DNA from: a virus
DNA: 47,190 nt
Strand: one strand, 5' to 3'
Virus record (IMG/VR): IMGVR_UViG_3300042539_001117
Location: 1-47,190 of that record
Shown here: positions 11,956 to 30,789 of the stretch, in pieces
Position numbering within the stretch: the first letter of the stretch is position 1
How the letters are laid out: each line of letters starts with the position of its first letter
Position numbers and translations under genes: made by a program
Notes under the pieces: model-generated
Databases searched by the model: none
Told to the model about the DNA's origin: nothing
What the model saw: the letters and a program-made list of their open reading frames with translations, nothing else

Positions 11956-12151
11956 ACAAATCAGTGAAGAATTAATACATGAATTTACGGAAACGATGGA
12001 CGATGCTATCCCTGTTTATTCTGATGAAGATCAAAATATCATAATGCCAAATGGCGGGACAACAAGGGAGTATGTTTTGACTGAAGCATTTGCTGAAATG
12101 AATAAGTATGTAATACTCCCACTATCTCCATCTGTGGATGATCTAATATGA
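11945..12151 (+). CDS. Cassette 1, gene b: small acidic protein
   Basis: 68 residues, with the start 11 bases inside the end of gene a and AAGGA/AAAGATGGAG context upstream. It is strongly acidic in its first half (EELIHEFTETMDDAIPVYSD) with EDQNIIMPNGG and a C-terminal ILPLSPSVDDLI. No family is recognised. The small protein in the same position of cassette 2 (19273) shares size and acidity but no clear sequence similarity. Its last codon overlaps the ATG of gene c (ATATGA). Confidence 0.65.
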   Translation: MEPRQISEELIHEFTETMDDAIPVYSDEDQNIIMPNGGTTREYVLTEAFAEMNKYVILPLSPSVDDLI

Positions 12152-12447
12152 AAACCTACAATGCGGAAAAAGACTTAGAATATATTAATGAGCAATTATA
12201 TTTATATTTATATATAATTGGTTTAAATCCTAAAAATATTGACGAGTATTCAATAGACCAAATAATAAATTCTGCAAGAAATATATCAATAGCTCCTATA
12301 AGCGAAGTTGAGTCAGGCTCTATGGATCTTTCAAATGATCCTCTTTATTTATTTTTAAAAAACCAAAGAATATCTTTAATTGGAAACATTAGAAGAATTT
12401 GGTACATGCGACAGTTAGCAATTGGAGCAATCAAAAATGCAGTATGA
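12148..12447 (+). CDS. Cassette 1, gene c: 99-residue RRxW protein
   Basis: 99 residues, starting at the ATGA overlap with gene b. Landmarks are KDLEYINEQL, YLYIIGLN, SIDQIINSARN and the C-terminal NQRISLIGNIRRIWYMRQL. It aligns over its full length with the 93-residue product at 19460 (DLE, IG, ID-x-(I/V)-IN, RN, (K)-x-Q-x-I-x-L, RR-x-W). The pair defines a small family I do not recognise. It is probably helical and cytoplasmic, with no membrane segment. Its coding end overlaps the start of the methyltransferase-like gene d. Confidence 0.68.
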   Translation: MKTYNAEKDLEYINEQLYLYLYIIGLNPKNIDEYSIDQIINSARNISIAPISEVESGSMDLSNDPLYLFLKNQRISLIGNIRRIWYMRQLAIGAIKNAV

Positions 12448-13135
12448 AGTAGATTATTTTGATAATTTAGTTAAATTAATAAAATACAATGATATCGAAT
12501 CAGTTGAAGATTCTATATCAAAAAGTAAAATAATAAATGAATACTTAGAGGCTTTTTCTATAGATAAAAGAAAAATAGCTGCTGGTATGGATTTTATGAT
12601 TTGGTATTTTGATGTCTTTAGTAAAGAAAGTCATTTTTGGAATGTCAATCCTGCCTACTTCTATGCGGCTAATACGCATGAATTTGGTTTTCTAACAGCT
12701 AATCCAAAAACTTCACTAATGACACTCCCGGCTTTTAATACTGGTTTAGCGAGATTAATGGAGAAGAAATCAAAGCTTTCTTTATTAAATAACTATCAGC
12801 TACATTTATTTGAGCACTATATAGGTGATGAACCGTGGTCTTACGACACTGTTACAATGCAGGATGTACAATCTGGCAATGGTGGCTACTATGATTTCAT
12901 ATGTATGAGCATTCATGACGTTATCCATGATCCAGATTTAGTTATAGATTTTTTTAATTTATTAAACAAAAATGGAACAATGATGATGCTATATACTGGC
13001 ACTGATCAGCTTTATAAAAATGGATCAATATATACTGATTTTTATGAAGTTCACAGAAATTTAATTAATATTAAAAATTCATGCGTTTATCATAACCCTA
13101 CAGGAGCAGCTGTTACTTATGCAGTTAGTTTATAA
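12437..13135 (+). CDS. Cassette 1, gene d: degenerate methyltransferase-like protein
   Basis: 232 residues. ATG 12437 is preferred to an upstream TTG because GGAG sits eight bases before it. The N-terminal helix region includes INEYLEAFSIDKRKIAAG. The C-terminal half has YDTVTMQDVQSGNGG, YYDFICMSIHD, then FFNLLNKNGTMMMLY, an order like strands 4-5 of a class I SAM methyltransferase. A Gly-rich SAM-binding motif I is not visible. It is homologous to the 246-residue product at 19731, sharing (V/I)D(R/K)R(N/K)IA(T/A)G, a final YH-x-P segment and overall layout. It may be an inactive or strongly diverged methyltransferase. Function unknown. Confidence 0.6.
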   Translation: MQYEVDYFDNLVKLIKYNDIESVEDSISKSKIINEYLEAFSIDKRKIAAGMDFMIWYFDVFSKESHFWNVNPAYFYAANTHEFGFLTANPKTSLMTLPAFNTGLARLMEKKSKLSLLNNYQLHLFEHYIGDEPWSYDTVTMQDVQSGNGGYYDFICMSIHDVIHDPDLVIDFFNLLNKNGTMMMLYTGTDQLYKNGSIYTDFYEVHRNLINIKNSCVYHNPTGAAVTYAVSL

Positions 13136-13138
13136 AAG

Positions 13139-13816
13139 ATGATTATTATAGATGATTTCATAAAAGATAAAAATTTATTAGAAGAAATAGAGTTAACTCC
13201 AAATTTCTTTCCAGAATCAATGGGCGACGAAGAAAAAATAGCTACAGTTTTAAATGGTTATCACGATGGACAATGTGATTGTTTTGCGCCGTATATGTTT
13301 TGGGATGGTTGGTTAAAATCTGAGGCAGATACTCCAAGAAAAAGATTAATTAAAAAAATATGGGAGAACAATCTTCCATTTCCAGTAGAAGACGTTTGCG
13401 GTTTTGAGTATTGGACTAGAACTTTTAAGCCTGGACAATTTCTTGATACTCATGTAGATGAAGATACATTTCTTTACGCAGATAAAAAAATATTTAGAGG
13501 ACCAAGAATAGGTTGTGTATATTATCCGCACACCAATGATGTGGTTGGTGGATTTTTAGAGATGCATCCTACAGCTATTTCAGAAGATACAGCTAACGCT
13601 TTAGAGAAAGAAAATATAGATCATTTAATAGTTCCAGTAGAGTTAAGAGAGAGAATATCTTGTAAGCCAAATAGGCTAATAATTTTTGACGCTGGACATG
13701 TCATACATAACACGACTCCACCGATTAAAGGTGTTAGAAGAGTTGTGGTGGTAAATGTGTGGCATAAAGATAACCCACCATCAGCTTTAAAAACTGGTGA
13801 ATTTTATTATGAATGA
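13139..13816 (+). CDS. Fe(II)/2-oxoglutarate oxygenase
   Basis: 225 residues, starting three bases after the previous stop. The N-terminus reads MIIIDDFIKDKNLLEEIE, the usual opening of phage-type oxygenases. The HxD is in FLDTHVDEDT (H105, D107). The distal His is H187 or H190 in FDAGHVIHNTTPP, followed by GVRRVVVVNVW with R200 or R201 as the 2-oxoglutarate anchor. Between them is an insertion (residues ~140-175) that is absent from the short neighbours and could shape substrate entry. It follows cassette 1 and overlaps the start region of the next oxygenase, so the two are probably co-translated. Substrate unknown. Confidence 0.82.
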   Translation: MIIIDDFIKDKNLLEEIELTPNFFPESMGDEEKIATVLNGYHDGQCDCFAPYMFWDGWLKSEADTPRKRLIKKIWENNLPFPVEDVCGFEYWTRTFKPGQFLDTHVDEDTFLYADKKIFRGPRIGCVYYPHTNDVVGGFLEMHPTAISEDTANALEKENIDHLIVPVELRERISCKPNRLIIFDAGHVIHNTTPPIKGVRRVVVVNVWHKDNPPSALKTGEFYYE

Positions 13817-14405
13817 AAAAATTGATTTATTTACATTAAGTATATGTAAAACTTTTTTACAAAACATTGACAATGATAAGTTGTTGAAGGAAATAGAAAA
13901 ATTTGACACAACACCAAATGTAAAAGATCCATCACCGGCTCATACTTTTTACGAAGATAAGCTTTATCCTTTTGGTCAACCAGAATCAATGAAGTTAATT
14001 GATGAAATAACTAATTCTGTCAATCATTTTACTAACTCAGATATGGTTATGGATTCTATTTGGACTATAACTCTAGAAAAAGGCCAGTCTGTTTTAAGCC
14101 ACACGCACAAGGTAAACACTCAGCTTTATCCAGAAGAATATTATTCTGTTTCATACTATGTAAGCGCACCAGAAGATAGCGCAGATTTAATATTTGTTAC
14201 CACACACTGTAATACAATAGAGAGAGCAACTTCAGTTAAAACAGAGACAGGAATGTTGTTGATATTTAACTCTTATATTCCCCATATGACAAATAGGCAA
14301 TATTCGGAAGAAAAAAGAGTTGTCGTAAGTGCAAACTTTAGTCCTAAAACACCGAACACTAACCCTACCGCAGATTGGTCGGAATATAGGGTGCCAAATA
14401 GGTAA
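13809..14405 (+). CDS. 2OG-Fe(II) oxygenase-like protein with HxH motif
   Basis: 198 residues from ATG 13809; a GTG at 13797 would add four residues, but GGTGA is better spaced for 13809. The core is SIWTITLEKGQSVLSHTHK, YYSVSYYVSAPEDSADLIFV, then ETGMLLIFNSYIPHMTNR and EEKRVVVSANFSP. Iron-ligand candidates are H98 and H100 (HTH instead of HxD) and H159, with R170 as the 2-oxoglutarate anchor. This pattern matches the PF13759 type (2OG-FeII_Oxy_5), where the H-x-H form is usual. It is the last gene before a promoter at 14435, so it ends the first island operon. Activity is likely but unproven; a non-catalytic cupin is the alternative. Confidence 0.75.
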   Translation: MNEKIDLFTLSICKTFLQNIDNDKLLKEIEKFDTTPNVKDPSPAHTFYEDKLYPFGQPESMKLIDEITNSVNHFTNSDMVMDSIWTITLEKGQSVLSHTHKVNTQLYPEEYYSVSYYVSAPEDSADLIFVTTHCNTIERATSVKTETGMLLIFNSYIPHMTNRQYSEEKRVVVSANFSPKTPNTNPTADWSEYRVPNR

Positions 14406-14465: not shown

Positions 14466-15575
14466 ATGACTGTAACAAAAGAAACTTACAAAGAATTCAT
14501 AGGCAATATAAAGATTAATGACATAGAGCCTATCATCAATGCCCCAGAAGTGGATTTTGCTGCGGTTGACCATGTTGTCAAAACTAATTTTGATATAATG
14601 TTTACTTGGGATTATTCTTTAGCTCGCACACAATTAAGAAAGCTTTACGAAAAAGCTAAAAATAATCAATGGAATGGAGAAACTGCATTAGACTGGTCTA
14701 CTCCTGTTGATATAGAAAAGTCTGTAGCTGAAGACTATGCAAATTTTGGATCGACTAGAGAGATGTCAGTCTATGAGGGTAGCCCTATAGAAAATTGGGG
14801 CGATAAAGAATGGCTGCAATTTGGCTTAGAAAGCAGAAGGTGGATGATCTCACAGTTCATACACGGAGAGCAAGGTGCTCTGATTTGTTCTGCAAAACTA
14901 ACACAAACATGTCCATGGTACGATGGCAAACTTTTTGCTGCAACACAAGTTGTAGATGAAGCTCGACATGTTGAAGTTTTTGCAAAGTATACTAATGAAA
15001 AATTGGGTGGAACACTTCCTTTTAACTGGCATATCCAAGGCTTGGTTGACGATACTATTGCCGACAATCGTTGGGATATAACCTATCTAGGAATGCAGAT
15101 TATGGTTGAGGGGCTCGGCCTTGCATCGATGGCGTATATGCGTGAATTAACAAATGAACCGTTGTTGAAGCAATTGTTGCGTAATGTTATGGCTGACGAA
15201 GCGCGTCATGTTTCATTTGGTATTATCTCACTCAAGGAGATCTATGCGGAAATGACCGATTCAGAGATTATGGAGCGTCAGCAGCTTGCCTATGAAGCTA
15301 GCATAAAGCTTGGGGAGCGAATGCTGCAACAAGAGGTATACGAAAAGATGGGTGTTAAGACAAAAGACATTGCCCCGTTCTTATTGAACGATCCAGCACA
15401 GGCTTGGATTAGAAAGATGCTTGCGGCTAAGATTGTCCCAAACCTTAGCAAGCTAGGGTTGCTAGATAGAAACGGTGCTTGGTTGCGTAGAAAATTTGAA
15501 GAAATGGGAACAATAGAATTTGAAAACCTTGGAGATTCTGAAGAGGAGTTTTCAGCTTTTATACATAGTTACTAA
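14466..15575 (+). CDS. Ferritin-like di-iron carboxylate protein
   Basis: 369 residues. A four-helix di-iron site is complete in sequence: E135 in FIHGEQGAL, D-E-A-R-H at 164-168 (E165, H168), E215 in QIMVEGLGLA, and a second D-E-A-R-H at 244-248 (E245, H248). This is the (E...ExxH)x2 pattern of the ribonucleotide-reductase R2-like and ferritin-like superfamily. No ribonucleotide reductase large subunit is visible and the length and spacing are not those of R2. An oxidase, N-oxygenase or desaturase-type enzyme is therefore more likely. It is the first gene of an operon with a methyltransferase, a TauD-like oxygenase and a glycosyltransferase, which suggests small-molecule or glycan tailoring. 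Codon and GC use looks a little richer than its neighbours in the 3' half. Confidence 0.82.
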   Translation: MTVTKETYKEFIGNIKINDIEPIINAPEVDFAAVDHVVKTNFDIMFTWDYSLARTQLRKLYEKAKNNQWNGETALDWSTPVDIEKSVAEDYANFGSTREMSVYEGSPIENWGDKEWLQFGLESRRWMISQFIHGEQGALICSAKLTQTCPWYDGKLFAATQVVDEARHVEVFAKYTNEKLGGTLPFNWHIQGLVDDTIADNRWDITYLGMQIMVEGLGLASMAYMRELTNEPLLKQLLRNVMADEARHVSFGIISLKEIYAEMTDSEIMERQQLAYEASIKLGERMLQQEVYEKMGVKTKDIAPFLLNDPAQAWIRKMLAAKIVPNLSKLGLLDRNGAWLRRKFEEMGTIEFENLGDSEEEFSAFIHSY

Positions 15576-15577
15576 TT

Positions 15578-16243
15578 ATGAAAACACCTAATGATTATAA
15601 TGTAGATAGAGTTTATTCCTATGAAAGCTCTGAAGATCTAAAGAGATATTATAATGATTGGGCGGATGAATATGATAGTTATGCAAAAGACGTAAACTAC
15701 ATCTTGCCAGAAAAAGTATCCGAAGTATTTTTTAAGTACGTTTCTAATAGTAATTATAGTGAAACAAAAAAAAATAGCATATTAGACATAGGTTGTGGTA
15801 CCGGATTATTGGGTGAAAGCCTGTCTTTTATTGATGATAATCTTTGGATTGAGGGCGTTGATATATCTTCTTCAATGATAAGGATAGCTTCTTTAAAGAG
15901 AAGAAAAAATTTTTTACCTGTATATGATTGGATGATGGTAGACGATCTGACTAGCCCAAAGTTAATGCTAGAAAGTTATTATGATTACTTTATAAGTTCT
16001 GGAACATTTACTCTTGGTCATCTTGGTTCTAGTGATTTAATTAATTTATTAATTTATTTAAAATCACAAGGTATAGCAGTTATATCAATAAAAGAAGATC
16101 ATTTTATTCATGATAACTTTAAAGAAATTTTTGTAGAATTAGAAAAAAACAAAACAATACAAGATATAATGTATTACAAGGTGAACTCTTACGAATCAAA
16201 TTTTAAAGCAGATTCAATAATTGTAAAGTTTAAAAAAGTTTAA
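15578..16243 (+). CDS. Class I SAM-dependent methyltransferase
   Basis: 221 residues, starting two bases after the preceding stop. Motif I is ILDIGCGTGLLGESL (residues 68-82), the acidic end of strand 2 is IEGVDISSSMIRIA (residues 91-104), and motif III/IV region is WMMVDDLTSP. Then YDYFISSGTFTLGHLG and GIAVISIKEDHF follow the expected strands 4 and 5. The N-terminal YYNDWADEYDSYAKDV is typical of small-molecule methyltransferases of the UbiE/COQ5-like type, though the substrate is unknown. Its place in the operon with ferritin-like, TauD-like and GT32-like genes suggests one tailoring pathway. Confidence 0.83.
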   Translation: MKTPNDYNVDRVYSYESSEDLKRYYNDWADEYDSYAKDVNYILPEKVSEVFFKYVSNSNYSETKKNSILDIGCGTGLLGESLSFIDDNLWIEGVDISSSMIRIASLKRRKNFLPVYDWMMVDDLTSPKLMLESYYDYFISSGTFTLGHLGSSDLINLLIYLKSQGIAVISIKEDHFIHDNFKEIFVELEKNKTIQDIMYYKVNSYESNFKADSIIVKFKKV

Positions 16244-16247
16244 ACTA

Positions 16248-17144
16248 ATGAATAATTTAAATTTTTGTTTTAAAAATTTATCTTTTAATCAAATATTAGA
16301 AAATAAAGAATTTTATCAAAAAAAACTAATTGATAATAAATTAGTTGGTTTTAAAAAAATAGAATTATCAGATAGTGAATATGAAAAAATTTGCACTGTT
16401 GTTTCGGGGGTTGACCAGTTATATTGGTTAAAAAAAAAGAATCACTCCACTTTGTATCAGCCAGATAAAAAAACTCTTACGGAAAAAAGTATAAAAAATT
16501 TTAGAGATTGGTGTATGCATTTAGACGTAACTCCAGTAATTGATGGCATGAATAATAACCTTGATAATTATGGGCATACATCTTATGTTTCAATGAATAT
16601 GAAGACATTTAAGTGTAATAAAAAATATGGAAAAACTGTTTTTTTAGATTTAATAAAGTTAAACAATTCTTGTCCAGATTATTTTAAAGAAAAATTGTTA
16701 GAATCTAAATTAGAATATCACATAAGTAAAGCTAAAGATTTTAATATTGATGCACCAAAAAAGCCACCAGTTAACAGAGCAGACTATAATTCAGATCTAG
16801 AGGCAGAAATAGCCAACGCAAAGATTGATCCTCTTTCTGGAATCTTTTATCCATTTAGAACTCATCCTATAACAAAAGAAACAATTTTATTTTGGCCTAC
16901 ATATTTAAGCTCTCAATTAGTCGGCGGCTTTAAGCCTTGGTTTGAAGAATTTAAGTTATGGATAAAAAATTATCTTGACGAAAAAAACAACTGGGACGAA
17001 TGGGAGTGGAGTAAAAACGATATTATAATTTTCGACAACAGATGTATGCTTCACTCGTTTACTCCTGGCTGGAAGCCAAAAGAAAGAATTTTTGATCAAA
17101 TTATTTTAGGTTCTGATGTGCAAATTTTTGAGGGTTTAAGATAG
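16248..17144 (+). CDS. TauD/TfdA-like Fe(II)/2-oxoglutarate dioxygenase
   Basis: 298 residues, with no clear ribosome site and the ATG four bases after the previous stop. The TauD-type HxD is H91/D93 in CMHLDVTPV. The C-terminal part has PFRTHPITKETILFWP, WDEWEWSKNDIIIFDNR, then CMLHSFTPGW (distal H269) and KERIFDQIILG (R280). This order and the W-x-x-x-D-x-x-x-x-DNR-x-x-x-H block are characteristic of the taurine and clavaminate-synthase-like family. It is a different oxygenase branch from the prolyl-hydroxylase-like genes around it. The gene is notably AT-rich. A small-molecule substrate is more usual for this family; which one is unknown. Confidence 0.8.
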   Translation: MNNLNFCFKNLSFNQILENKEFYQKKLIDNKLVGFKKIELSDSEYEKICTVVSGVDQLYWLKKKNHSTLYQPDKKTLTEKSIKNFRDWCMHLDVTPVIDGMNNNLDNYGHTSYVSMNMKTFKCNKKYGKTVFLDLIKLNNSCPDYFKEKLLESKLEYHISKAKDFNIDAPKKPPVNRADYNSDLEAEIANAKIDPLSGIFYPFRTHPITKETILFWPTYLSSQLVGGFKPWFEEFKLWIKNYLDEKNNWDEWEWSKNDIIIFDNRCMLHSFTPGWKPKERIFDQIILGSDVQIFEGLR

Positions 17145-17897: not shown

Positions 17898-18266
17898 ATG
17901 GCCTATGAATTGGTGGGCAAAAGCCCAACATCCGCAGTGGGTCTGTGTGTCAGATTAAATATTTGGAAATGGTATGAGTTTGTCAGAATGATTAGCTATT
18001 TTAATATAATCTCTGATTTAGAAATTTCGTCCTGGATGACAAATGATCAGGTTGAATTGTCCAGTGAGGAAGCAATATTATTATCGGAAAATATAAAATC
18101 AAATCTTGATAACTTTGATTATTTTATAAATGAACTTTACAAAGAAGACATCCCCTATTCACACATGCCGTGGCACAGAGAAGTTTGTTGTCCAATTTTA
18201 AATGGATCTGACATCAAATATGTGCTATTATTTTTAGAATCATGTGGTGGGTTTAAGGTTAGATGA
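17898..18266 (+). CDS. Uncharacterised 122-residue protein
   Basis: Starts after a 17-base gap; a GTGAG lies near but no strong ribosome site is seen. Visible parts: MAYELVGKSPTSAVGLCVRL, then WKWYEFVRMISYFNII, an acidic helix ELSSEEAILLSENIKSNLDN, and a C-terminal DIKYVLLFLESCGGFKVR. Cys-rich in the last third (HREVCCPI and SCGG). No family is recognised. The end overlaps the ATG of the oxygenase at 18263 (GATGA), so the two are probably translated together. A regulatory or accessory partner of that enzyme is possible. Confidence 0.6.
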   Translation: MAYELVGKSPTSAVGLCVRLNIWKWYEFVRMISYFNIISDLEISSWMTNDQVELSSEEAILLSENIKSNLDNFDYFINELYKEDIPYSHMPWHREVCCPILNGSDIKYVLLFLESCGGFKVR

Positions 18267-19027
18267 AGGTGGAAAGAATGTATAAGCCGAGAATAATTGT
18301 ATTTACCGATTTTCTACCAAAGGAAGATTGGGAAGTTGTAGATAAGTATTGTAGAGATAATAAAGAAAAATTTCCATATGTCGGTTACGGTTCTCCGGTT
18401 AGATGGAAGATAGAGGAGCATTCTAAAAATCCAGATATTAAATATATTCGTTCTTTTTTAATTTCAGAAGAAGAATATGATCTATATATGAAGGGTGAAA
18501 TACCGGAGCCTTATCCAAACGATACAAAGCATGGCGACAACTATGTGATGTCGGTAGAAGAGATCCAAAAGGTTGAGGAAGAGCCACCTGTAACTGCACT
18601 CATGCACCATTCTAAATGGCCAAATAGCTTACTGCAAAATAAAACATTTGACATTATAAGCGGTTACCTGTCTGGTGTCGTAAGTATAGTAAAAGAAGTA
18701 TATGGTGAAGATTGTTTCAGTGAAAGTGGCCCTTGGATAGCGGTAGCTAGAGAAGGTGGCTATATGAATATGCACTGTGACGGAACGTTTATACATAACA
18801 GGGACGCCATTACACAGTATTCTAGCGTGTATTACATCAATGACGATTACGAGGGCGGCGAATTCAATATGCCGCTGATGGGCTTTAAGCTTAAACCTAA
18901 AGCAAATTCGCTTCTTATTTTTACCCATTCTTCCCATGAAGATATGGCGCATGAGGTAACACCAGTTTTATCTGGTGATCGTTTTGTTTCACAAGGATTT
19001 TTTGCCATTACAAAAACCAATAGCTGA
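18263..19027 (+). CDS. Fe(II)/2-oxoglutarate oxygenase, prolyl-hydroxylase type
   Basis: 254 residues from the overlapping ATG 18263; an in-frame ATG at 18278 is an alternative start. The first 130 residues form a long helical lead including a Glu-rich segment (SVEEIQKVEEEPPV). The core has MNMHCDGTFIH (H171, D173), VYYINDDYEGGEFNMP, KPKANSLLIF, then EDMAHEVTPVLSGDRF with distal H230 and R240. It is closest in style to the genes at 9732 and 21397. The last gene before the promoter at 19028, it ends the second island operon. Substrate unknown. Confidence 0.86.
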   Translation: MKVERMYKPRIIVFTDFLPKEDWEVVDKYCRDNKEKFPYVGYGSPVRWKIEEHSKNPDIKYIRSFLISEEEYDLYMKGEIPEPYPNDTKHGDNYVMSVEEIQKVEEEPPVTALMHHSKWPNSLLQNKTFDIISGYLSGVVSIVKEVYGEDCFSESGPWIAVAREGGYMNMHCDGTFIHNRDAITQYSSVYYINDDYEGGEFNMPLMGFKLKPKANSLLIFTHSSHEDMAHEVTPVLSGDRFVSQGFFAITKTNS

Positions 19028-19272: not shown

Positions 19273-19467
19273 ATGAGTAGTATAGGTGAGCCAAATAGTT
19301 TTGGAATGGAAACAAGACAAGGGGAATCTATAACTGATACCCCAGACTGGGACAACGAAATTATAGAGTGGGACTCTGCGACTGGGATATATTATGTTGC
19401 CGGCAAACCGGTCAGCATGTGTCAAGGTGTTGCAATGTTTAAGGAAGAAAAAAAAGAAGATGAATAA
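19273..19467 (+). CDS. Cassette 2, gene b: small acidic protein
   Basis: 64 residues, beginning two bases after gene a. It is rich in Glu, Asp and Trp (TPDWDNEIIEWDSATGIYYV), then AGKPVSMCQGVAMF, and ends in a mixed charged tail KEEKKEDE. It matches cassette 1 gene b in size, acidity and position, but no residue pattern is shared that I can defend. The final codons overlap the ATG of gene c at 19460. Confidence 0.62.
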   Translation: MSSIGEPNSFGMETRQGESITDTPDWDNEIIEWDSATGIYYVAGKPVSMCQGVAMFKEEKKEDE

Positions 19468-19741
19468 GTATAGGCCGCTAGAAGATCTGGAGCACCGTTC
19501 CCAACACTTGGCATCTTTTTTGTTTATTCTTGGAATTGATGAAGATGATTTTGAATCTACCAAAATAGATGATGTTATAAATCTTATTAGGAATAGATAC
19601 GTGTACAAACACAGCCATCCAGATTACAATATAGCGGTTCAAGAATACGTTAAAAAACAAAGTATTGTTTTAAATAGGGGAGTTAGAAGAGCTTGGTTTG
19701 ATGTGCAAGTTGCTTCGTACGAGGTGCAAAATGTCGGGTGA
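19460..19741 (+). CDS. Cassette 2, gene c: 93-residue RRxW protein
   Basis: 93 residues from ATG 19460, inside the end of gene b; a longer frame from 19394 would overlap more of gene b and has no support. Landmarks are LEDLEHRSQHLASFLFILG, KIDDVINLIRN, KKQSIVLNRGVRRAWF. These align along the whole length with the product of 12148. The conserved core is DLE, (I)(L/I)G, ID-x-(V/I)-IN, RN, Q-x-I-x-L and RR-x-W. The family is unknown to me. It overlaps the next gene by 11 bases. Confidence 0.68.
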   Translation: MNKYRPLEDLEHRSQHLASFLFILGIDEDDFESTKIDDVINLIRNRYVYKHSHPDYNIAVQEYVKKQSIVLNRGVRRAWFDVQVASYEVQNVG

Positions 19742-20471
19742 TAAAAAGTATGAACCACAGTTATCTTTTGATTTTACTAGCTGGGAATATGATTGGCGAT
19801 CATATGCTAATGAGTCTACGAAAAAAGATGGACCAGAGTCAGTAGCAATTTCTGATTATTTATTTAATACAGTTGGTGTAGATAGAAGAAATATAGCTAC
19901 TGGCGGGGCCAGTGATTATGAATTTGTTATACATTACCCAAGACCAAATTTAGCTGACTCATACGGTCAATCTCAGTGGATGCCGATACTATTAATTCAG
20001 ATGCTAATGGATATTAGTAGAGGCAAGAATATACTGGCATTGTCGGGGGGGCTAGATAGATTTAGATTGAAGCCTTTTCAGGATATCTACGGGTCTAATA
20101 TATATATGTTGAATAATAAAAAAACAGCAATGTATGAAAAGTTCCAAAAAGAAAATACTCCAATAGAATATGATGTTGTTAGCCATCAGGATCTAGAAAA
20201 AGACAATTGCAATAATTATATGTTTGATATGATTGTGGGATGGTCACAGGACATGGAGAATCCCTTTGTGCCTGTACATTTTTATCTTGATAGATTAAAT
20301 ACAGGTGGGATTCTAGTGATCCAAAATTCATCAGATAGCATTTTTCTTTACCAAAATGATACTCAGGCATCTCCTGTTTGGGAGTATCACAATGAGATAA
20401 AGTCAAGAAAAGACTGCAACATGTATCACATACCTTTGTTTTATGGGGTTACAGTTGTCATTAAACAATAA
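19731..20471 (+). CDS. Cassette 2, gene d: degenerate methyltransferase-like protein
   Basis: 246 residues from ATG 19731; GAGGTG lies four bases upstream, which favours this start over the upstream TTG at 19698. Visible: VGVDRRNIATGGASDYEFV, a nucleotide-binding-like loop GKNILALSGGLDRF, YGSNIYMLNNKKTAMYEKF (where a methyltransferase carries its SAM-ribose acidic residue), then YDVVSHQDLEKDN, FDMIVGWSQD and LDRLNTGGILVIQN. The order is that of a class I methyltransferase with poor motif I. It is the homologue of 12437, and better preserved. Whether it binds SAM is open. Confidence 0.62.
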   Translation: MSGDKKYEPQLSFDFTSWEYDWRSYANESTKKDGPESVAISDYLFNTVGVDRRNIATGGASDYEFVIHYPRPNLADSYGQSQWMPILLIQMLMDISRGKNILALSGGLDRFRLKPFQDIYGSNIYMLNNKKTAMYEKFQKENTPIEYDVVSHQDLEKDNCNNYMFDMIVGWSQDMENPFVPVHFYLDRLNTGGILVIQNSSDSIFLYQNDTQASPVWEYHNEIKSRKDCNMYHIPLFYGVTVVIKQ

Positions 20472-20473
20472 TA

Positions 20474-20484
20474 GGTGATATAAT
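20474..20484 (+). promoter_or_regulatory. Extended -10 promoter, possibly leaderless
   Basis: GGTGATATAAT just after the stop of the upstream gene, only six bases before ATG 20491. The transcript would start at or near the ATG. The GGTGA could instead act as a distant ribosome site for readthrough mRNA. Confidence 0.6.
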
Positions 20485-20490
20485 TGTTTT

Positions 20491-20787
20491 ATGATTACTA
20501 AATGGAAAGCAACAGTGGTTAATCCACTTGGAACAGAAAAATACAGTGTAAACCTGGACAGTACGGATGACTTAGCCACCGCTACGGCGTCAAGCGAAAA
20601 GGGTACCGTGCAGTTTGTGCAAACACAAAGCCTAAGTCCTCTATTCGCCGCAAACATAGAAGCTCCAATGAAAACAAGATTAGAGCTAGAATTTAGCACC
20701 AATGATTTTACCTCAAAAGATATGTCAGCTGTTTTAAGGGTAGGAGATTTTTCTAGTATGAAAGTAGATTTGGTTAGATATGAATAA
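20491..20787 (+). CDS. Uncharacterised 98-residue protein
   Basis: First gene after the promoter at 20474. It encodes MITKWKATVVNPLGTEKYSV and a beta-rich, Ser/Thr-rich body with GTVQFVQTQSLSPL and APMKTRLELEFSTNDF, and ends MKVDLVRYE. It has no Cys or His and no catalytic pattern, so it may be a small beta-barrel or a binding protein. Family not recognised. It overlaps the peroxidase-fold gene at 20780 by eight bases, suggesting coupling. Confidence 0.6.
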   Translation: MITKWKATVVNPLGTEKYSVNLDSTDDLATATASSEKGTVQFVQTQSLSPLFAANIEAPMKTRLELEFSTNDFTSKDMSAVLRVGDFSSMKVDLVRYE

Positions 20788-21400
20788 TTCAGCATACGAT
20801 ATTGAGCTATTGTCAATCGACGGCTCATATGACATTATGGGGTCAATGAAGGGCAAATTAACTCTTGTAACAAATATAGCTTCAAAATTAGGCTATGATC
20901 CTAAGTGTAGTGTAACTTTTTCTTACGCAAGAACTTGTAAATATTTATGGGAACTTGAATTCATTTATCAAAAATATAAAGATCAAGGCTTTAGCGTCGT
21001 TGGTATACCATGTAATCAATTTGGGAAACAAGAGCCAAAAGAGAATAACGAAATAGAAGCTTTTATCAAAGAAGCTTATCCTTTTGTAAGTTTTCCTATT
21101 TCTCAAAAAATAGAAGTTAACGGCAAAAATGAACATCCGCTTTATTCTTTTTTAAAGGGACCAGAAAAAAGAGGATATTCAGACACTACCGCAGACAGCA
21201 GCGATGCAGCTATTGAAGGACAGAATTTAGTTGGTCAGGCAATAGCAAGAATTCCACATAGCTACGAAAAGTTCTTATTAAGCCCTCAAGGAATGTTTAT
21301 TACTAGATTTAATTGGCAAGATGGACCACTAGATGAGGAGCCTAGAGTTATGGGCGCTGGTTGGACCATTATGGAAGCGATAGAGGAGATGCTAGGATGA
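20780..21400 (+). CDS. Glutathione-peroxidase-like protein with altered active site
   Basis: 206 residues. The fold is clear: GKLTLVTNIASKLGYDPKC, FIYQKYKDQGFSVVGIPCNQ, FGKQEPKENNEIEAF, YSFLKG and YEKFLLSPQGM. Active-site positions: the peroxidatic Cys/Sec of NVAS-x-(C/U)-G is Leu37; the Gln of FG-x-QE is kept (Q84); the Trp-Asn of WNFEKF are His160 and Ser161. An extra ~12-residue insertion carries C43 and C53, and C78 is in the CNQ motif. So the classical reaction is unlikely unless an inserted Cys substitutes. Contrast the product of 10476, which keeps Cys and Asn. It is followed by four tandem oxygenases starting inside its stop codon. Confidence 0.8.
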   Translation: MNNSAYDIELLSIDGSYDIMGSMKGKLTLVTNIASKLGYDPKCSVTFSYARTCKYLWELEFIYQKYKDQGFSVVGIPCNQFGKQEPKENNEIEAFIKEAYPFVSFPISQKIEVNGKNEHPLYSFLKGPEKRGYSDTTADSSDAAIEGQNLVGQAIARIPHSYEKFLLSPQGMFITRFNWQDGPLDEEPRVMGAGWTIMEAIEEMLG

Positions 21401-22494
21401 GCTACAATATAGAGTCAGAAAATTCCCAAATTAGAGATGTAGCGTTCCCCTCTAGCCCGCCCCTCAATGAGGACACCGTAAAGGAAATATCCACAATTGA
21501 ATGCGAAATCCTTGGCCCAGGTGTCGTGGTTTTTAGGAACGCTTTTCAGATAGATCAGGACGCAGTGCTAACGCATATTGATTCCAATGCAGAAGAAGCG
21601 CATAAAACCCGATGGGAATATGTTGAGGTTGATGGCGTAAAAATGGGCATCAATGAAGACGGCTTTAGGTATAGGATGGAAGACGTACCAGCAGCACCGA
21701 TAAGATTGCTTGACCCGGTAAATGAATCTACGCCTAAAGAAGTAGAAGAGTTTCTATACACTTTGGAAGACCAAATATACAAGTGTCTGATAAAGTACAT
21801 AGACCACTACCCCCTGATGCTTGGTAGCATATGGTGGAAGACAAGAGGCCATATATTGCGCTATGGAGATGGTGGAAGACTTGGTTGTCACGCAGATAAT
21901 GATACTAATTATAAGGTGACAAAAGGCGTTAGGTATATGCCAAAGGGTATGGTCGCATCAAGACAAACATGCGGTGCTTTAATTTACCTAAATGATTGCG
22001 TAGATTCTGAAGAAGAATTAAATGGAAGAAATTTTACAGGCGGACATCTTAGGTTTGTTCATTTGGGAATTTCTTATAAGCCAAGAAAAGGTGACATAAT
22101 ATTCTTCCCAACAAATTACGTCGCGTCCCACGATGTAGAAACTATGGGTAAGGGTGTTAGATATAGTTATTTAACTTTTTTTGGTCAAGGCGCAAATGAT
22201 AAGAGCGCAAATATTATGATAGTTGAACCAGATGAAAGTTTCCAATGGTGTCCTCCTGTTTGGTTAAATAATATATATGATGATTACGAAATGTATTGCA
22301 AATCTCCATATTCTATTTTTTCTGATCCAGGAAAAAACAATGTAGAAGTTGGTTGGAACCCAGTTTACCAAGGAAGAGAAGTCGCACAGTACAGCGCATC
22401 ACACGATGCGGTTGAGGTTGAAGAAGCTAAAGCTGATACTGTATCCGAAGATCTACCAGAAGGACCATGCGGTACTGAAGCTGTAAGAATCTAA
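21397..22494 (+). CDS. Tandem oxygenase array copy 1 (Fe(II)/2-oxoglutarate)
   Basis: 365 residues from the ATG overlapping the previous stop (ATGA). Core: SIWWKTRGHILRYGDGG, then LGCHADND (H165, D167), ALIYLNDCVDSEEELNG, FTGGHLRFVH, KGDIIFFPTNYVASHDV (distal H245) and GVRYSYLTFFG (R255). It is the longest of the four copies, with a ~70-residue C-terminal acidic extension (DAVEVEEAKADTVSEDLPEG) that the others lack in this form. The N-terminal ~130 residues contain the shared VVVFRNAFQIDQDAV and WEYVEVDG region. A hydroxylase of protein or peptide is inferred; the substrate is unknown. Confidence 0.86.
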   Translation: MSYNIESENSQIRDVAFPSSPPLNEDTVKEISTIECEILGPGVVVFRNAFQIDQDAVLTHIDSNAEEAHKTRWEYVEVDGVKMGINEDGFRYRMEDVPAAPIRLLDPVNESTPKEVEEFLYTLEDQIYKCLIKYIDHYPLMLGSIWWKTRGHILRYGDGGRLGCHADNDTNYKVTKGVRYMPKGMVASRQTCGALIYLNDCVDSEEELNGRNFTGGHLRFVHLGISYKPRKGDIIFFPTNYVASHDVETMGKGVRYSYLTFFGQGANDKSANIMIVEPDESFQWCPPVWLNNIYDDYEMYCKSPYSIFSDPGKNNVEVGWNPVYQGREVAQYSASHDAVEVEEAKADTVSEDLPEGPCGTEAVRI

Positions 22495-22498
22495 TATT

Positions 22499-23413
22499 AT
22501 GAAAATAGAAAAATTAGGAACTGGAATTGTCCTATTCCAAAATGTTATCAACATGGAAGAATACCCTGAGATAATACCTTTCATAAAATCATTAAAGCAA
22601 AAGGCAGTAGAAGAAGATTATACGATAATTAAAAATGAACGCAATGAAAGTGTATATGCCATAAATAGAAGTGGGCATAGATATGCAATAGAGGATATAG
22701 AAAAAAGCTCTAGCCACATTATGAATTTTTTAGATAATAATGATTCTGATAAAATAGAATTGTTTTTTATTGAATGCGAAAGAGCTTTTAGGCAGTGCCT
22801 TCTTCAATACCTTGAGATATATCCGATGGCTCTTCCAAGTATATGGTGGAGAACTCAGGGGCATATATTAGCATATGGCCCAGGGAGCGACATGGGTCTC
22901 CATAGTGACAATGATGTTAACTACCAGCCTGGATTTGAACCAGATCTTCAAGTGGCGACTAGAAGTGTTTTGGGGTCTATCTTGTATTTTAATACATCTG
23001 TAGATTCAAAAGAAGAGATTATAAAAGATGAATATCTTGGCGGACATATAGTGTTCCCGTATTGTGATGTTGATTATTCTCCAAAAGCAGGAGATTTACT
23101 AATGTTTCCATCTAACTTCATTGCCTCACACGAGGTTAAGGAATGTTATGAAGGTGGAAGATATGCCTATATTGGTTATTATTCTCATGGTTCGGAGCAT
23201 ATAGAAAGAGGCATACAATTAATTAATGGGGATCTACCTGTTGGAAAACAGGGTCAAATATGGATGCCAGAGATAGTTGAAGAATATAAAGAATATATAT
23301 ACAATAAATACCCTGATAAGCCTGAAGATTTTTATGGCGATTTGCTCCAGGCAACCAAAAGAATGTATAATAGCGCTAATACACTAAAGGAAGTAAACCA
23401 TGAAATTCAATGA
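22499..23413 (+). CDS. Tandem oxygenase array copy 2 (Fe(II)/2-oxoglutarate)
   Basis: 304 residues, four bases after copy 1. Core: SIWWRTQGHILAYGPGSDMG, then LHSDND (H135, D137), ILYFNTSVDSKEEI, LGGHIVFPY, AGDLLMFPSNFIASHEV (H211) and GGRYAYIGYYSHGSEH (R221). The N-terminal region begins KLGTGIVLFQNVINMEEY, paralogous to copies 1, 3 and 4. The C-terminal region has WMPEIVEEYKEYIYNKYPD, which is shared with copy 3 (NLYMPTLVSDYRSYLLS). It overlaps copy 3 by 14 bases (start of copy 3 at 23400), a strong sign of co-translation. All metal and cofactor residues are intact. Confidence 0.86.
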   Translation: MKIEKLGTGIVLFQNVINMEEYPEIIPFIKSLKQKAVEEDYTIIKNERNESVYAINRSGHRYAIEDIEKSSSHIMNFLDNNDSDKIELFFIECERAFRQCLLQYLEIYPMALPSIWWRTQGHILAYGPGSDMGLHSDNDVNYQPGFEPDLQVATRSVLGSILYFNTSVDSKEEIIKDEYLGGHIVFPYCDVDYSPKAGDLLMFPSNFIASHEVKECYEGGRYAYIGYYSHGSEHIERGIQLINGDLPVGKQGQIWMPEIVEEYKEYIYNKYPDKPEDFYGDLLQATKRMYNSANTLKEVNHEIQ

Positions 23414-24281
23414 CGTTGATGCAAAGCATCTGGGTGGCGGTGTAGTTTTATTTGAATCAGCAATCGATATTGATTGGGATTACATTAGAGGGTTTAGTAG
23501 AGACGCTATTAATAAAGAAAAAGAAGAAATGTATGTCCCCGCTGTAGATCCAGAAACCGGCGATGAAATCTACCTTAATAAAAGTGGGTACTTTTTTGGC
23601 AAAGATAGTATTGACCAAATGCCAGGAAGAGGATCAGCGATACATAGATATAGTGACGAAAAAATAAAAGAAATATTTGATTTTGTAGAAGAATCAAAAG
23701 ATAAGTATTTGCTCAAGTATTTTGAACTATTCCCTTTGGCATTTAAATGCGTATGGTGGAAGGTTAAGGGACACATAGTTCAGTACAAAAAGGATGTTTA
23801 TTTGGGCAGCCATTCCGATGTTAGTGCAGATTACATATATGACGTTTGGACACCTAAAGACCAACTCGCGACTAGAAATACAATAAGCAATGTATTCTAC
23901 CTAACCTCTTGCGTTGACACTGTAGAGGAGTTAGATGGCACAAATTTTGTTGGAGGCCATCATTATTTTAATTATTTAGATATAAATGTAAAACCAAAAA
24001 AAGGTGATCTATTGATGTTCCCTTCTAATTTTATGGCAGCACATGAAGTCAAGCCAGTAGAGGATGGGGAAAGATACTCTTATCTTGGCTGGTACAGCCA
24101 TGGAACCCCAAATAGTGAGGTTGGGGAATCAGTTGTTGACCCAGGAAAAGAGCTAGAACTAGCAAAAAATGCCACCAACCTCTACATGCCTACCCTGGTT
24201 TCTGACTATAGAAGCTACCTTTTATCAAAGGGCTATGATGAATCGTCCGAGCAGTTTATGTTAACAAGATCGAATTATTAA
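23400..24281 (+). CDS. Tandem oxygenase array copy 3 (Fe(II)/2-oxoglutarate)
   Basis: 293 residues; the start lies 14 bases inside copy 2 with AAAGGAAG upstream. Core: VWWKVKGHIVQYKKDVYLG, SHSDVSADY (H138, D140), VFYLTSCVDTVEELDG, FVGGHHYFNYL, KKGDLLMFPSNFMAAHEV (H215) and GERYSYLGWYSHGT (R225). The opening KHLGGGVVLFESAIDIDWDY matches the shared N-terminal unit. The C-terminal segment NLYMPTLVSDYRSYLLSKG parallels copy 2. The catalytic set is complete, so loss of function is not evident. Divergence lies mostly in the loop after HxD and in the N-terminal lid, the regions expected to pick the substrate. Confidence 0.86.
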   Translation: MKFNDVDAKHLGGGVVLFESAIDIDWDYIRGFSRDAINKEKEEMYVPAVDPETGDEIYLNKSGYFFGKDSIDQMPGRGSAIHRYSDEKIKEIFDFVEESKDKYLLKYFELFPLAFKCVWWKVKGHIVQYKKDVYLGSHSDVSADYIYDVWTPKDQLATRNTISNVFYLTSCVDTVEELDGTNFVGGHHYFNYLDINVKPKKGDLLMFPSNFMAAHEVKPVEDGERYSYLGWYSHGTPNSEVGESVVDPGKELELAKNATNLYMPTLVSDYRSYLLSKGYDESSEQFMLTRSNY

Positions 24282-24282
24282 T

Positions 24283-25080
24283 ATGTTAAAAAAAGATTTT
24301 AAAATAGAAGATAAAGGTTCCGGGCTATGTGTAATGACAAACGCATTTGATATTGATCAAGACATGCTTTTTGAATATATAAACTGGCTTAAACAGGAAG
24401 AGGAAGACACCTTTACTTATTTGGAAGAAAATGGCAAAAAGTACGCTATTAACAGAACTGGTTTTAAGTTTGATTTATCAGAAGTAAGAGAGGCGCCAGA
24501 AAGATTCGTTGATCCGCTATGCAGAATGTCGAGCAGAAAGCCAACCGCCGAACAATGCAAATTAATATATGATTTAGAGGATTTAATTTACGAGGCTTTG
24601 GTTGAATACGTAAAGATATATGACGTAGCTGCAACAGTTTGTTGGTGGAGAAGCCCTGGTCACATAGCTACTTATTCGGACGGTCAAAAAATTGGTCCTC
24701 ATTGTGATGATCAAATTCCATGGGAATATGGTGTAGCTCCAAGAAATGAGTATCCAAAGCACAGTAAGGTAAGTATAAACATATACTTAAATGATGGCGT
24801 GGATTCTGAGGAAGAATTAAATGGAAGAAATTTCTTGGGCGGAGACATAATATTTAAATACGCGAAGTATAGACATAAGCCAAAAACTGGTAGTATAACT
24901 ATATATCCAACTAACTATGTTGGCACACACGAGGTTGAATCAGTTACCGCTGGGAAAAGAATAGCCTACCTTGGAGCACTTCTTTATGGGACTCCGGCTA
25001 ATGCTAGCCCCGTTCCAGAGGTTGGAGAAGAGAGAATATGGCTACAAAATCTAAGAAAAGATGCTGGGCTAATGCATTAA
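24283..25080 (+). CDS. Tandem oxygenase array copy 4 (Fe(II)/2-oxoglutarate)
   Basis: 265 residues, the shortest copy, one base after copy 3. Core: VCWWRSPGHIATYSDGQ, GPHCDDQIP (H140, D142), INIYLNDGVDSEEELNG, FLGGDIIFKYAKYRHKP, GSITIYPTNYVGTHEVES (H216) and GKRIAYLGALLYG (R226). The motif YLND-x-VDSEEELNGRNF is almost identical to copy 1, so copies 1 and 4 may be the closest pair in that region. There is no C-terminal extension. It is the last gene of the island. A non-oxygenase small gene at 25126 follows. Confidence 0.85.
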   Translation: MLKKDFKIEDKGSGLCVMTNAFDIDQDMLFEYINWLKQEEEDTFTYLEENGKKYAINRTGFKFDLSEVREAPERFVDPLCRMSSRKPTAEQCKLIYDLEDLIYEALVEYVKIYDVAATVCWWRSPGHIATYSDGQKIGPHCDDQIPWEYGVAPRNEYPKHSKVSINIYLNDGVDSEEELNGRNFLGGDIIFKYAKYRHKPKTGSITIYPTNYVGTHEVESVTAGKRIAYLGALLYGTPANASPVPEVGEERIWLQNLRKDAGLMH

Positions 25081-25125
25081 TCATTATTACTATTGTCCTA
25101 TAGGATACTTAAGTATTGGGATAAT

Positions 25126-26726: not shown

Positions 26727-28601
26727 GTGTTAATAGTAAAAAAAAATCAACAATTAAAATTTAGATTTACATTTGTTGGTGACGCTAGGTCAACTTCAAC
26801 TACATCAACTAATTCTAAAAATATTTCATTTAAACAAATACTAAACAACAAAGCGATAATAACCACAGTTGTTAACCATGGTTTCCAGGTTGGACAAGCA
26901 GTTACAATTACTGGGGTAGATTCAATATTTAACGGATTGCATACAATAGAAGAAGTAACTAATGACACATTCAGTTATAGAACAGTAGAATCAAATGTTA
27001 GCGTTGTTGTTTCTTCTGGTACAGCTTCTGTTACTTCCGCCTTATTGAACGGCGGTTTATCCTATGACCCAATAGCAAATGGTTCAGATGTTACGGTTAG
27101 CGTGTATAGAGGTCTTGACCAATCAGGTGCAATTATAGGAGTTCCTATATCTTATAGGTATACAAATTCCACGACAAGCCCTGACGCCTACATAGAGAGA
27201 AATGGAACAACTGAGTTTGTTTTTAATTATAGAATTCCAGAAAATATAGAAGCACAAAATTCTTTATTCAGCGGCATTTACACTATTGTAGCTAGAACTT
27301 ACATCGACGGAAATTTATTGAGTTCAACGGTTCAATTTGAACTAAAAGATACTTTATACGATTTAGTCTCAGGTGTTGGTCAAGGGAATAAATCTGCAAC
27401 AATAACTTACAAACCGTCTTATGATGACCTGAACCAAACTAATATGCAGTCTATATTATTAATAGGCCACGCAGATGGGCTAGAATTAAATAATCCAGTA
27501 AAAATAAACTCAGTACAAAACGCAATAGATCTTTTATCTGGGAACAAGAACAGCCCTTTACTTAGGGGCGTATTAGATGCATATGGCGCAGGCGCAAGAA
27601 ACATATTCATATGCGCGGCAGCCCCGATGTCGGAATATGTTTTAAGCGTAGAAGATAGAAACAAAGCTTATGCCGTTTTTAATGGACAAACTCTTAAAAC
27701 TTTCTATGAAAAATATTATGAAAGATTGATTGAAACATATAGTATTATAAAACAATTAGACTATATAGATATAATTGTTCCATTAGAAGCTTCTATAATA
27801 AAAACTGGTGGAGTAGATTTCTTGTCACAACTCGTGCACTATTGCAATGACTTCCACAATGAAACTGGGTATGTGCAAATTGGCGTTATAGGCAGTAGAG
27901 GGAATGGAATAAGTTCATCCGATATTGAGTTGATTCAAAATAGCAAATATCTTAGATACAAATATACTACATTTATTAACACTACCTCTAGCACGCAAAT
28001 TGCTTCTGACATAGGAAGATACGTTGTTCCAGTATATGGGGAGGCTGTGTTCTCTCACCTGCAAATAGACAACACCTACACCGCCTCAGTTGCAGCAGCT
28101 GTTGCTGGGATGATAGCCCAGTCTCAATTAAATATGGGCTTAACAAGAAAAAGAATTCCAGGGGCTTTATCTTTGTACGGTGTAGACCTAAATTCTACTC
28201 AATTAAATACACTTGACTCAATCGGCATAAACACAATATATAGAGGCACTAAAGCACGTAGGGGTAATGTATATGAAGTGTACCTGACCAGTGATTACAC
28301 CCTTTCAAATGTTAATTCTGTGTTTTCGAAACTTCCGCAAATGAGGTTAACTTCATATGTAGCTAGCCAAGTCAAAGCGTACGGCTATGATTACATAGGA
28401 AAATTTGGGTATGACAAGGTTGTAACTAGTGTTACTAATATGTTGTCAACATTAAAGAAGAATGGTTCAATTGTTGACTATGAATTTAAGGCAGAACAAT
28501 CTGAACAGGAACAAGGTCTATTAATATTAAATATTAATTTAACTTCTTCTTTAGGTTTGAAAAAAATTAACCTTTCTTTATCAGCAGGACCGGCGGCTTA
28601 A
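26727..28601 (+). CDS. Tail sheath protein 1 with extra N-terminal domains
   Basis: 624 residues from a GTG one base after the previous stop; only a weak ribosome site is seen. Residues ~1-215 contain an Ig-like domain (KFRFTFVGDA, VTVSVYRGLDQSG, FSGIYTIVARTYIDG). Inserted in it is a FCCH-like piece (ITTVVNHGFQVGQAVTITG, FNGLHTIEEVTNDTFSY). From ~220 it is a contractile-tail sheath: LIGHADGLELNNPVKI, AIDLLSGNKNSPLLRGVLDA, then TYTASVAAAVAGMIAQSQLN and the C-terminal GTKARRGNVYEVYL and FSKLPQMRLTSYVASQV. The role is the contractile outer layer of the tail. A second, shorter sheath gene is at 29476; the two may assemble in different tail zones. Confidence 0.85.
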   Translation: MLIVKKNQQLKFRFTFVGDARSTSTTSTNSKNISFKQILNNKAIITTVVNHGFQVGQAVTITGVDSIFNGLHTIEEVTNDTFSYRTVESNVSVVVSSGTASVTSALLNGGLSYDPIANGSDVTVSVYRGLDQSGAIIGVPISYRYTNSTTSPDAYIERNGTTEFVFNYRIPENIEAQNSLFSGIYTIVARTYIDGNLLSSTVQFELKDTLYDLVSGVGQGNKSATITYKPSYDDLNQTNMQSILLIGHADGLELNNPVKINSVQNAIDLLSGNKNSPLLRGVLDAYGAGARNIFICAAAPMSEYVLSVEDRNKAYAVFNGQTLKTFYEKYYERLIETYSIIKQLDYIDIIVPLEASIIKTGGVDFLSQLVHYCNDFHNETGYVQIGVIGSRGNGISSSDIELIQNSKYLRYKYTTFINTTSSTQIASDIGRYVVPVYGEAVFSHLQIDNTYTASVAAAVAGMIAQSQLNMGLTRKRIPGALSLYGVDLNSTQLNTLDSIGINTIYRGTKARRGNVYEVYLTSDYTLSNVNSVFSKLPQMRLTSYVASQVKAYGYDYIGKFGYDKVVTSVTNMLSTLKKNGSIVDYEFKAEQSEQEQGLLILNINLTSSLGLKKINLSLSAGPAA

Positions 28602-29475: not shown

Positions 29476-30789
29476 ATGGCTACACCGGGTGTAACAACAT
29501 TAATTAGAGATCGCTTCTACAGCGTCTCAAGGCAAGATGTCCCAGCGGGACCAAGAATTGTGGCGATAGCCAAAAGAAACAAAAATGAGTTCAATCCTTC
29601 TACGGAAACAACTGCTTATAATGCTATGAACAAGGTTGCTGACCTTGACGTAGTGCAAGCTACTACAGAGAAAGATGTTATTGACGCTTTTGGCGTTGGT
29701 TCAGATCTCCATAAAGCATTTTTGGAATTGATTACTGCAGGCGCAGAAAGAATTCACCTTGTTCCACTTCCTTATGACACGCAGTTTGACCACACAAATG
29801 GACAACTAAAAAGCGCTAGCGCAGGATTTGCTAGTTATGGCGAAGATATTTTTAACGCAGCTTTTGCAGCAGCAGAAGCTGCAATCCCAGATGTTATCAT
29901 ACCTTGGGGTAGAGGTGGCAATTCATCAGACTGGGATGCCACAACAGGAGCGACACCAAACGCACAAGATTATCTTTTCCACGCAAACAACTCCAATACA
30001 ACAGCAAATAACTGGGCATATAAGGTAGCAAGTAAAGTAAAAGATATTTCCGAAAATACAAACCCGTGCATTGCAGTGATGGGTATAGCGCCATACGTAG
30101 CAAGTTCAAGAGAAACTTTAACACCAGCGCAAGTTTCATCACACATGACTTCTTCTTTGGCACTCTTGCCAGACAGGAATAATGCGCTTATGAAGGCTGT
30201 TGGTTCGTATGTTTCAATTATAGCTACAGAAGTAAAACCAGTAGGATACGCTACAACAACTTCTGATGGAACTACAGATTACGGTTATTCAAACGGAGCA
30301 GCATCACTTGCGGCGACTATGAGCAGAACACCATCGTACACGGGCCTAACAAACAAAGCTCTTTACAATGTTCAAGCTCTTCGTTACGCACCCACAAGAG
30401 TGCAGCAAGTAACCCTGAATGCCGCAGCAGTAAACGCTGTTATATTGAACTTTAATAAGATTGCAGTATTCGGTGGAGCAGTAACTTACTCGGCAGCAAA
30501 TTCAGACTATCTGAGACTCTCAACTAAGAGAATCGTAGATGAGGCTTCACAACTAGTTCGTCAAGTATGTCAAAAGTTCATTGGCGAACCATCAACAATA
30601 CAAGTAAGAAATTCAATGGAAACAGCAATTTCTTCAGGCTTACGTGGTATGCAAGTCAAAGGTGCCTTGCTGGAGAGTGACTTCAATGTTACATATGTTC
30701 CTTCAGATAACATGGCGATTGTAGACCTCGTATTAACACCTGCGTTCGAACTTAATTCGATCCAGGTTCAAATATCCATTAACATATAA
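29476..30789 (+). CDS. Tail sheath protein 2
   Basis: 437 residues. It opens MATPGVTTLIRDRFYSVSRQ and has AGPRIVAIAKRNKNEF, VIDAFGVGSDLHKAFLELIT, AGAERIHLVPLPYDTQF, then SLAATMSRTPSYTGLTNKAL. The C-terminal domain has RIVDEASQLVRQVCQKFIGE and MQVKGALLESDFNVTYVPSD. This is the layout of a contractile tail sheath, including the C-terminal domain that hooks neighbouring subunits. It is clearly different from sheath 1, with no Ig-like lead. It precedes the tube genes, the usual sheath-tube order, so it may be the main sheath. The relatively high-GC, regular codon use fits high expression. Confidence 0.85.
   Translation: MATPGVTTLIRDRFYSVSRQDVPAGPRIVAIAKRNKNEFNPSTETTAYNAMNKVADLDVVQATTEKDVIDAFGVGSDLHKAFLELITAGAERIHLVPLPYDTQFDHTNGQLKSASAGFASYGEDIFNAAFAAAEAAIPDVIIPWGRGGNSSDWDATTGATPNAQDYLFHANNSNTTANNWAYKVASKVKDISENTNPCIAVMGIAPYVASSRETLTPAQVSSHMTSSLALLPDRNNALMKAVGSYVSIIATEVKPVGYATTTSDGTTDYGYSNGAASLAATMSRTPSYTGLTNKALYNVQALRYAPTRVQQVTLNAAAVNAVILNFNKIAVFGGAVTYSAANSDYLRLSTKRIVDEASQLVRQVCQKFIGEPSTIQVRNSMETAISSGLRGMQVKGALLESDFNVTYVPSDNMAIVDLVLTPAFELNSIQVQISINI

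Follow-up and report, generated by a model that had tools for sequence, protein, structure and literature searches.

An array of four Fe(II)/2-oxoglutarate oxygenase genes, duplicated long ago, is kept in a lineage of large uncultured phages

The IMG/VR virus record IMGVR_UViG_3300042539_001117 (47,190 bases, analyzed over its whole length and called the window below) contains four consecutive genes for Fe(II)/2-oxoglutarate (2OG) oxygenases, here named A, B, C and D. Late genes of myophage type are also found in the window, namely a sheath-like protein (phrog_16991, 29476-30789, E 1e-21), a second, weak sheath match at 26727-28601, and tube/head-like genes at 30812 and 31593. The array is carried by a group of bacterial viruses that are large, live in water and have not been cultured. 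The four genes are as follows.

21397 to 22494, plus strand: oxygenase copy A, 365 amino acids (aa) from the ATG at 21397; PF13640 at 42 bits; clade support 100/100; prolyl-hydroxylase-like model
22499 to 23413, plus strand: oxygenase copy B, 304 aa; PF13640 at 33.7 bits; clade support 97/85
23400 to 24281, plus strand: oxygenase copy C, 293 aa; PF13640 at 44.5 bits; clade support 100/100
24283 to 25080, plus strand: oxygenase copy D, 265 aa; PF13640 at 33.8 bits; clade support 100/99

The genes run head to tail, with a gap of 4 nt between A and B, an overlap of 14 nt between B and C and a gap of 1 nt between C and D. The ATG of copy A shares 4 nt with the stop of the preceding gene, and an in-frame TTG is also present at 21361. 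A first-pass annotation, made from the letters of the DNA, had described four adjoining oxygenase genes at 21397-25080 with intact catalytic residues; gene calls bear this out, and all four products exceed the curated Pfam cut-off of PF13640 (27 bits), which places them in the Fe(II)/2OG oxygenase superfamily. The HxD...H iron triad and the 2OG-binding arginine are present in every copy, and the residues quoted for them are correct when A is numbered from 21397 (in the 377-aa frame those of A become H177/D179/H257/R267). Two of the shared motifs needed amendment: the tryptophan motif is present, with the pattern WW-[KR]-x-x-GHI rather than WW-x-(K/R)-x-x-GHI, and VDSEEELNG is exact in A and D only, C having VDTVEELDG and B VDSKEEIIK. 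Among orthologues of A, B, C and D (80, 70, 75 and 71 open reading frames (ORFs), of which 47, 42, 45 and 42 are distinct), triad and arginine are retained in all ungapped rows except one C row with lysine for arginine; one B, three C and one D row are gapped at the later catalytic positions. The residues needed for the expected chemistry are intact, and loss of catalytic residues in close relatives, which had been named as evidence to the contrary, did not occur. In fourteen alignment columns one residue is common to all four groups, each at 90% or more; these include the triad, the arginine and a tyrosine before HxD.

The four window proteins are 27-35% identical to one another and homologous over nearly their whole length. 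Profile-profile E-values over about 260-275 columns (A-B 5e-60, A-D 1.4e-50, C-D 3.1e-46) exclude chance similarity, whereas A compared in the same way with another oxygenase of the window reached only 5.8e-16. A careful tree built from 85 rows recovered each copy as a single clade (supports as listed above), and so did a quick tree of 119 rows. One lineage has the rearranged order GPx-B-C-D-A, with A reversed and GPx denoting the glutathione peroxidase-like gene that heads the array, and its copies fall inside the respective clades; in part of this lineage AurF-like and methyltransferase genes sit between B and C. Since the clades hold across both gene orders, the duplications predate the split of these lineages. 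The oxygenases A-D of this one phage lineage are therefore ancient duplicates that selection maintains and that are inherited as a set, and the paralogy and old divergence proposed at first pass hold, without the placement in unrelated clades that would have spoken for independent captures. Against 20 other oxygenase rows A-D grouped together with support 81/86, which is only suggestive of a single common origin, and none of the deeper pairings AD, BC and AB was rejected (p-AU 0.214, 0.197 and 0.23).

Strong purifying selection acts on all four copies. Whole-gene ratios of nonsynonymous to synonymous substitution (dN/dS), from up to seven pairs of which several are saturated (dS >1), were 0.015-0.071 for A-C and 0.036-0.086 for D, with one outlying D pair at 0.125 and a tiny dS of 0.03. 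Ratios of about 0.02-0.09 in most pairs agree with the earlier view that the chemistry was conserved through divergence. Between the window and one relative (L008), D and a sheath gene are nearly identical (dS 0.03 and 0.05) and A-C have dS >1, which points to recent recombination within the array.

Relatives were collected from scans of viral contigs, using the best 80 of 135 loci with A, 80 of 154 with D and 80 of 384 with the nearby DUF6065 gene. Many of these loci are near copies, and so the 189 loci bearing C were clustered at 97% C identity into 64 clusters, in which C is present by construction. The full order ABCD was found in 36 clusters, BCD in 11, BCD with A further on in eight and ACD in five; CDA, ABBCD, ABC and AC occurred once each. 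B is lacking between adjoining A and C in six clusters (the five ACD and the AC). A is lacking in six of the 11 BCD clusters with both DUF6065 and a tail gene visible; in the other five the contig ends too early or belongs to the rearranged lineage. D is lacking in one locus (L049), where the homologue of the gene at 25093 directly follows C. That A, B or D can be lost while the others remain argues against an obligate four-part complex and lends indirect support to separate roles for the copies; the more specific first-pass idea, that they may act on different residues of one protein, is conjectural. Scans of genome_contigs with D (as a single sequence) and A (as an alignment) gave no relative, although seeding was by short exact peptides and distant cellular homologues could escape it.

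Single loci showed further variation. In L058, B is broken into two overlapping frames, by frameshift or sequencing error. One record of 210,831 bases (G004) has C at its very end and D at its very start, which suggests that the record is a whole genome, about 210 kb long and circularly permuted. Fifteen records had 5-11 PF13640 matches each, and L029 has two further PF13640 oxygenases behind D. One sub-lineage carries proteins of unknown family between C and D (L148 6504-8007, L151 7213-7998, L055 11051-11674). By eye these inserts appeared sulfotransferase-like and one L029 protein FkbM-like; neither assignment was confirmed by Pfam and PHROGs, and no weight is given to them.

The array belongs to an operon-like run in which the gene at 20491, the GPx-like gene, A-D and the gene at 25093 are separated by 1-12 nt or overlap. 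Its upstream members are listed below.

20455 to 20484, plus strand: promoter-like element containing TATAAT at 20479-20484, preceded by TG, 6 nt ahead of the gene at 20491
20491 to 20787, plus strand: small, fast-evolving gene of 98 aa that opens the operon-like run, no family match
20780 to 21400, plus strand: GPx-like gene heading the array, PF00255 E 1.6e-27

A TATAAT near the start of the small gene was found in 9 of the 11 relatives in which that gene was recognized; none was found in the other seven of the 18 relatives examined, where the stretch before the GPx-like gene was read instead. The element at 20455-20484 is the best of the promoter matches in the window, which total 41 against 44.2 expected and so are not above chance. 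At the position that we take to be that of the peroxidatic cysteine, the GPx-like protein of the window has leucine; cysteine stands there in one of 22 aligned relatives and alanine, leucine, tyrosine, phenylalanine or serine in the rest. Another cysteine, six residues on, is invariant in the alignment. Judged from these residues the protein is conserved, yet probably not a normal peroxidase.

The array is set in an island rich in tailoring enzymes. Besides A-D, six other genes of 2OG type are found there, together with genes for an AurF/R2lox-like protein, a methyltransferase and a glycosyltransferase. The principal features are these.

6507 to 8543, plus strand: fiber-like gene upstream of the island, whose homologue in one large record (G008) tracks A-D at 0.64-0.81
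9043 to 9660, minus strand: 2OG-oxygenase-like gene (ox9043), below the Pfam cut-off, co-inherited
9732 to 10466, plus strand: further 2OG oxygenase (ox9732), with a history in common with A-D and most clearly with B and D
11096 to 11800, plus strand: DUF6065 gene, PF19541 E 3.8e-42, near the array in relatives
13139 to 13816, plus strand: 2OG-oxygenase-like gene, below the Pfam cut-off
13797 to 14405, plus strand: PF13759-type 2OG oxygenase
16248 to 17144, plus strand: TauD-type oxygenase
18263 to 19027, plus strand: PF13640 oxygenase in the variable part of the island

In relatives the same stretch holds P450, radical SAM/SPASM, DegT aminotransferase, WS/DGAT acyltransferase, PhyH and TauD genes. 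The AurF/R2lox-like gene followed by the methyltransferase lies near the array in the window (14466-16243), and in rearranged loci (L182, L183 and L187-L189) the pair either separates B from C or immediately precedes B. A two-gene module occurs twice, at 12148-13135 and 19394-20471, on either side of the island's variable part; it encodes a protein of about 100 aa and one of about 240-257 aa without family match, the relation of the two copies being judged by eye. Three loci were viewed among the 34 plasmid records matching DUF6065: in two Sinorhizobium plasmids (L245, L246) the gene begins 10 nt behind an autotransporter gene, and the third, from Niveispirillum and lacking annotation, has no autotransporter-like neighbor on its strand. 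This is a hint, no more, that DUF6065 may be linked to surface proteins. A structure model of DUF6065 was too poor (predicted local distance difference test, pLDDT, 42.6) and was set aside.

Co-inheritance was measured as the correlation of pairwise protein distances over 22-23 contigs. A-D correlated with one another at 0.47-0.76, with ox9732 at 0.28-0.75 and with DUF6065 at 0.31-0.52, whereas the adjacent downstream tail genes gave -0.05 to 0.25, and the search for co-inheritance with the tail core was negative. In a wider test of ten large records and 85 orthogroups, the only genes outside the island to reach 0.6 or more with at least three of A-D were the fiber (0.64-0.81) and three small genes, which are thermonuclease-like, deoxyribosyltransferase-like and RNase H. 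The array is thus part of a block whose inheritance is separate from that of the tail core. This counts against the tail core as a substrate and makes the fiber a fair candidate, although co-inheritance alone accounts for the pattern too.

A structural model was built for copy A only, from 22 sequences (mean pLDDT 67.9), and contains the double-stranded beta-helix fold. Foldseek against the PDB gave as first match the Pseudomonas putida prolyl-4-hydroxylase (P4H) in complex with EF-Tu (E 8e-7), with Tpa1 also among the matches and natural-product oxygenases likewise in the top 50. VIA-align placed P3H1 (Z 12.3, root-mean-square deviation 4.5, 189 aligned residues) and PHD2 at the top, and 47 of its best 50 rows were hydroxylases acting on prolyl or lysyl residues of proteins, with PHD2 entries in the majority, the other three being uncharacterized oxygenases. 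PHD2, P3H1, P4H and the P. putida enzyme appear to be the closest folds (Z 11-12) and have the metal triad and 2OG arginine in common with A, but in the listed rows A is only 10-17% identical to them and it carries long extensions at both termini. Among viral models, two proteins from uncultured Caudovirales phages come nearest (24-26% identity). PKHD-type hydroxylases (YbiX/PiuC) match by profile weakly and in the core region: all copies fell below the NF003974 cut-off of 143 bits (A 12.5, B 14.3, C 21, D 26.1). Profile searches of PDB sequences with A, C and DUF6065 gave no meaningful match, and that with D found the PKHD-type hydroxylase 3dkq (E 8.5e-4). For A, the model favors protein substrates, without proving them.

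With a probability of roughly 0.4, we propose that A-D are co-expressed from a single operon late in infection and act as protein hydroxylases, that each would have its own target site, and that the likeliest targets would be exposed parts of the virion, such as the co-inherited fiber, the neighboring tail core being less likely; the new hydroxyls may then serve as sites for further decoration by other island enzymes. This proposal draws on the separate clades over two gene orders, the kept catalytic residues, low dN/dS and separate losses, on the hydroxylase-like structural matches (47 of 50, and the EF-Tu-bound enzyme), and on the operon-like spacing, the recurring promoter-like element and a history common with the fiber but not the tail core. 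Several results weigh against it. The three DNA-metabolism genes track A-D as well as the fiber does, so co-inheritance alone suffices to explain the fiber result. The model of A is of moderate confidence, and natural-product oxygenases are also within its Foldseek top 50. Columns conserved within each copy and differing between copies numbered 0 in 75 rows at a 90% threshold, so that the search of sequences for specificity residues failed at that level. A short Gly-X-Y run is present in the fiber at 1209-4097 of the window (GPAGDTGPAGPTGPEGPTGSI) and longer ones in fiber-like ORFs of G004, G006 and G008, yet only three of the ten large array-bearing records, some of them fragments, have such runs and all ten have A, B, C and D. 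A bolder form, which we regard as speculative and rather improbable, makes the array the core of a decoration pathway, in which the four hydroxylases would act at set fiber positions and exchangeable partners (glycosyl-, methyl- and acyltransferases, radical SAM, P450) would elaborate the hydroxyls; if true, these phages would diversify the chemistry of their surface through exchange of enzymes as well as through changes of sequence.

It is possible, if doubtful, that A-D instead serve a tailoring pathway for a phage-made small molecule, sugar or peptide. The AurF/R2lox-like, TauD, methyltransferase and glycosyltransferase genes of the island, the additional enzymes encoded in relatives and the natural-product oxygenases among the Foldseek matches would fit such a pathway; A-D stay constant, however, while the partner enzymes vary, and the structural ranking favors protein hydroxylases. 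Modification of EF-Tu, ribosomal proteins or other proteins of the host, turning it to phage production, seems to us unlikely: the EF-Tu-bound P4H as best Foldseek match, the presence of Tpa1 and inheritance apart from the tail core point toward it, and the setting of the array among late structural genes and its co-inheritance with the fiber point away. A role in consuming 2OG, and thereby shifting nitrogen signaling in the host, has been proposed for cyanophage oxygenases (PMC3037559). The 5-11 PF13640 matches per record are in keeping with that idea. We hold it to be very improbable here, as bulk 2OG use would not need four separately conserved clades, and uncoupled 2OG turnover is inefficient. 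Hydroxylation of collagen-like Gly-X-Y repeats, which would be the obvious target for prolyl hydroxylases, suggested by the runs described above and by the fold similarity to P4H, P3H1 and LH3, has little to recommend it as the common function, since the repeats occur in three of ten records and A-D in all. That the four proteins form one obligate hetero-oligomer, despite their tight order and the 36 clusters with ABCD, is scarcely credible given the clusters and locus lacking A, B or D.

Large sets of 2OG-Fe(II) oxygenases are known from phages: cultured T4-like cyanophages mostly have 1-5 such genes and S-SCSM1 has 24 (PMC9602691), that report adding that the functions of the viral enzymes were not specifically investigated. 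No close relatives of the array were found in the named phage collection, and a literature search found no description of such a four-oxygenase array. Four orthologous copies kept across a lineage, most of them separately losable, offer a good place for finding first substrates, and phages naturally without A, B or D can be compared with phages having the full set. The array resembles the cyanophage enzymes in being phage-borne, of the PF13640 type and in many copies, and A-D match cyanophage proteins weakly (phrog_61, and tblastn at 24-38%). Unlike them, it is a single array whose four orthologous groups have persisted across the phage lineage; phages rich in 2OG oxygenases were already known, and what is new is an array that is conserved, ancient and co-inherited.

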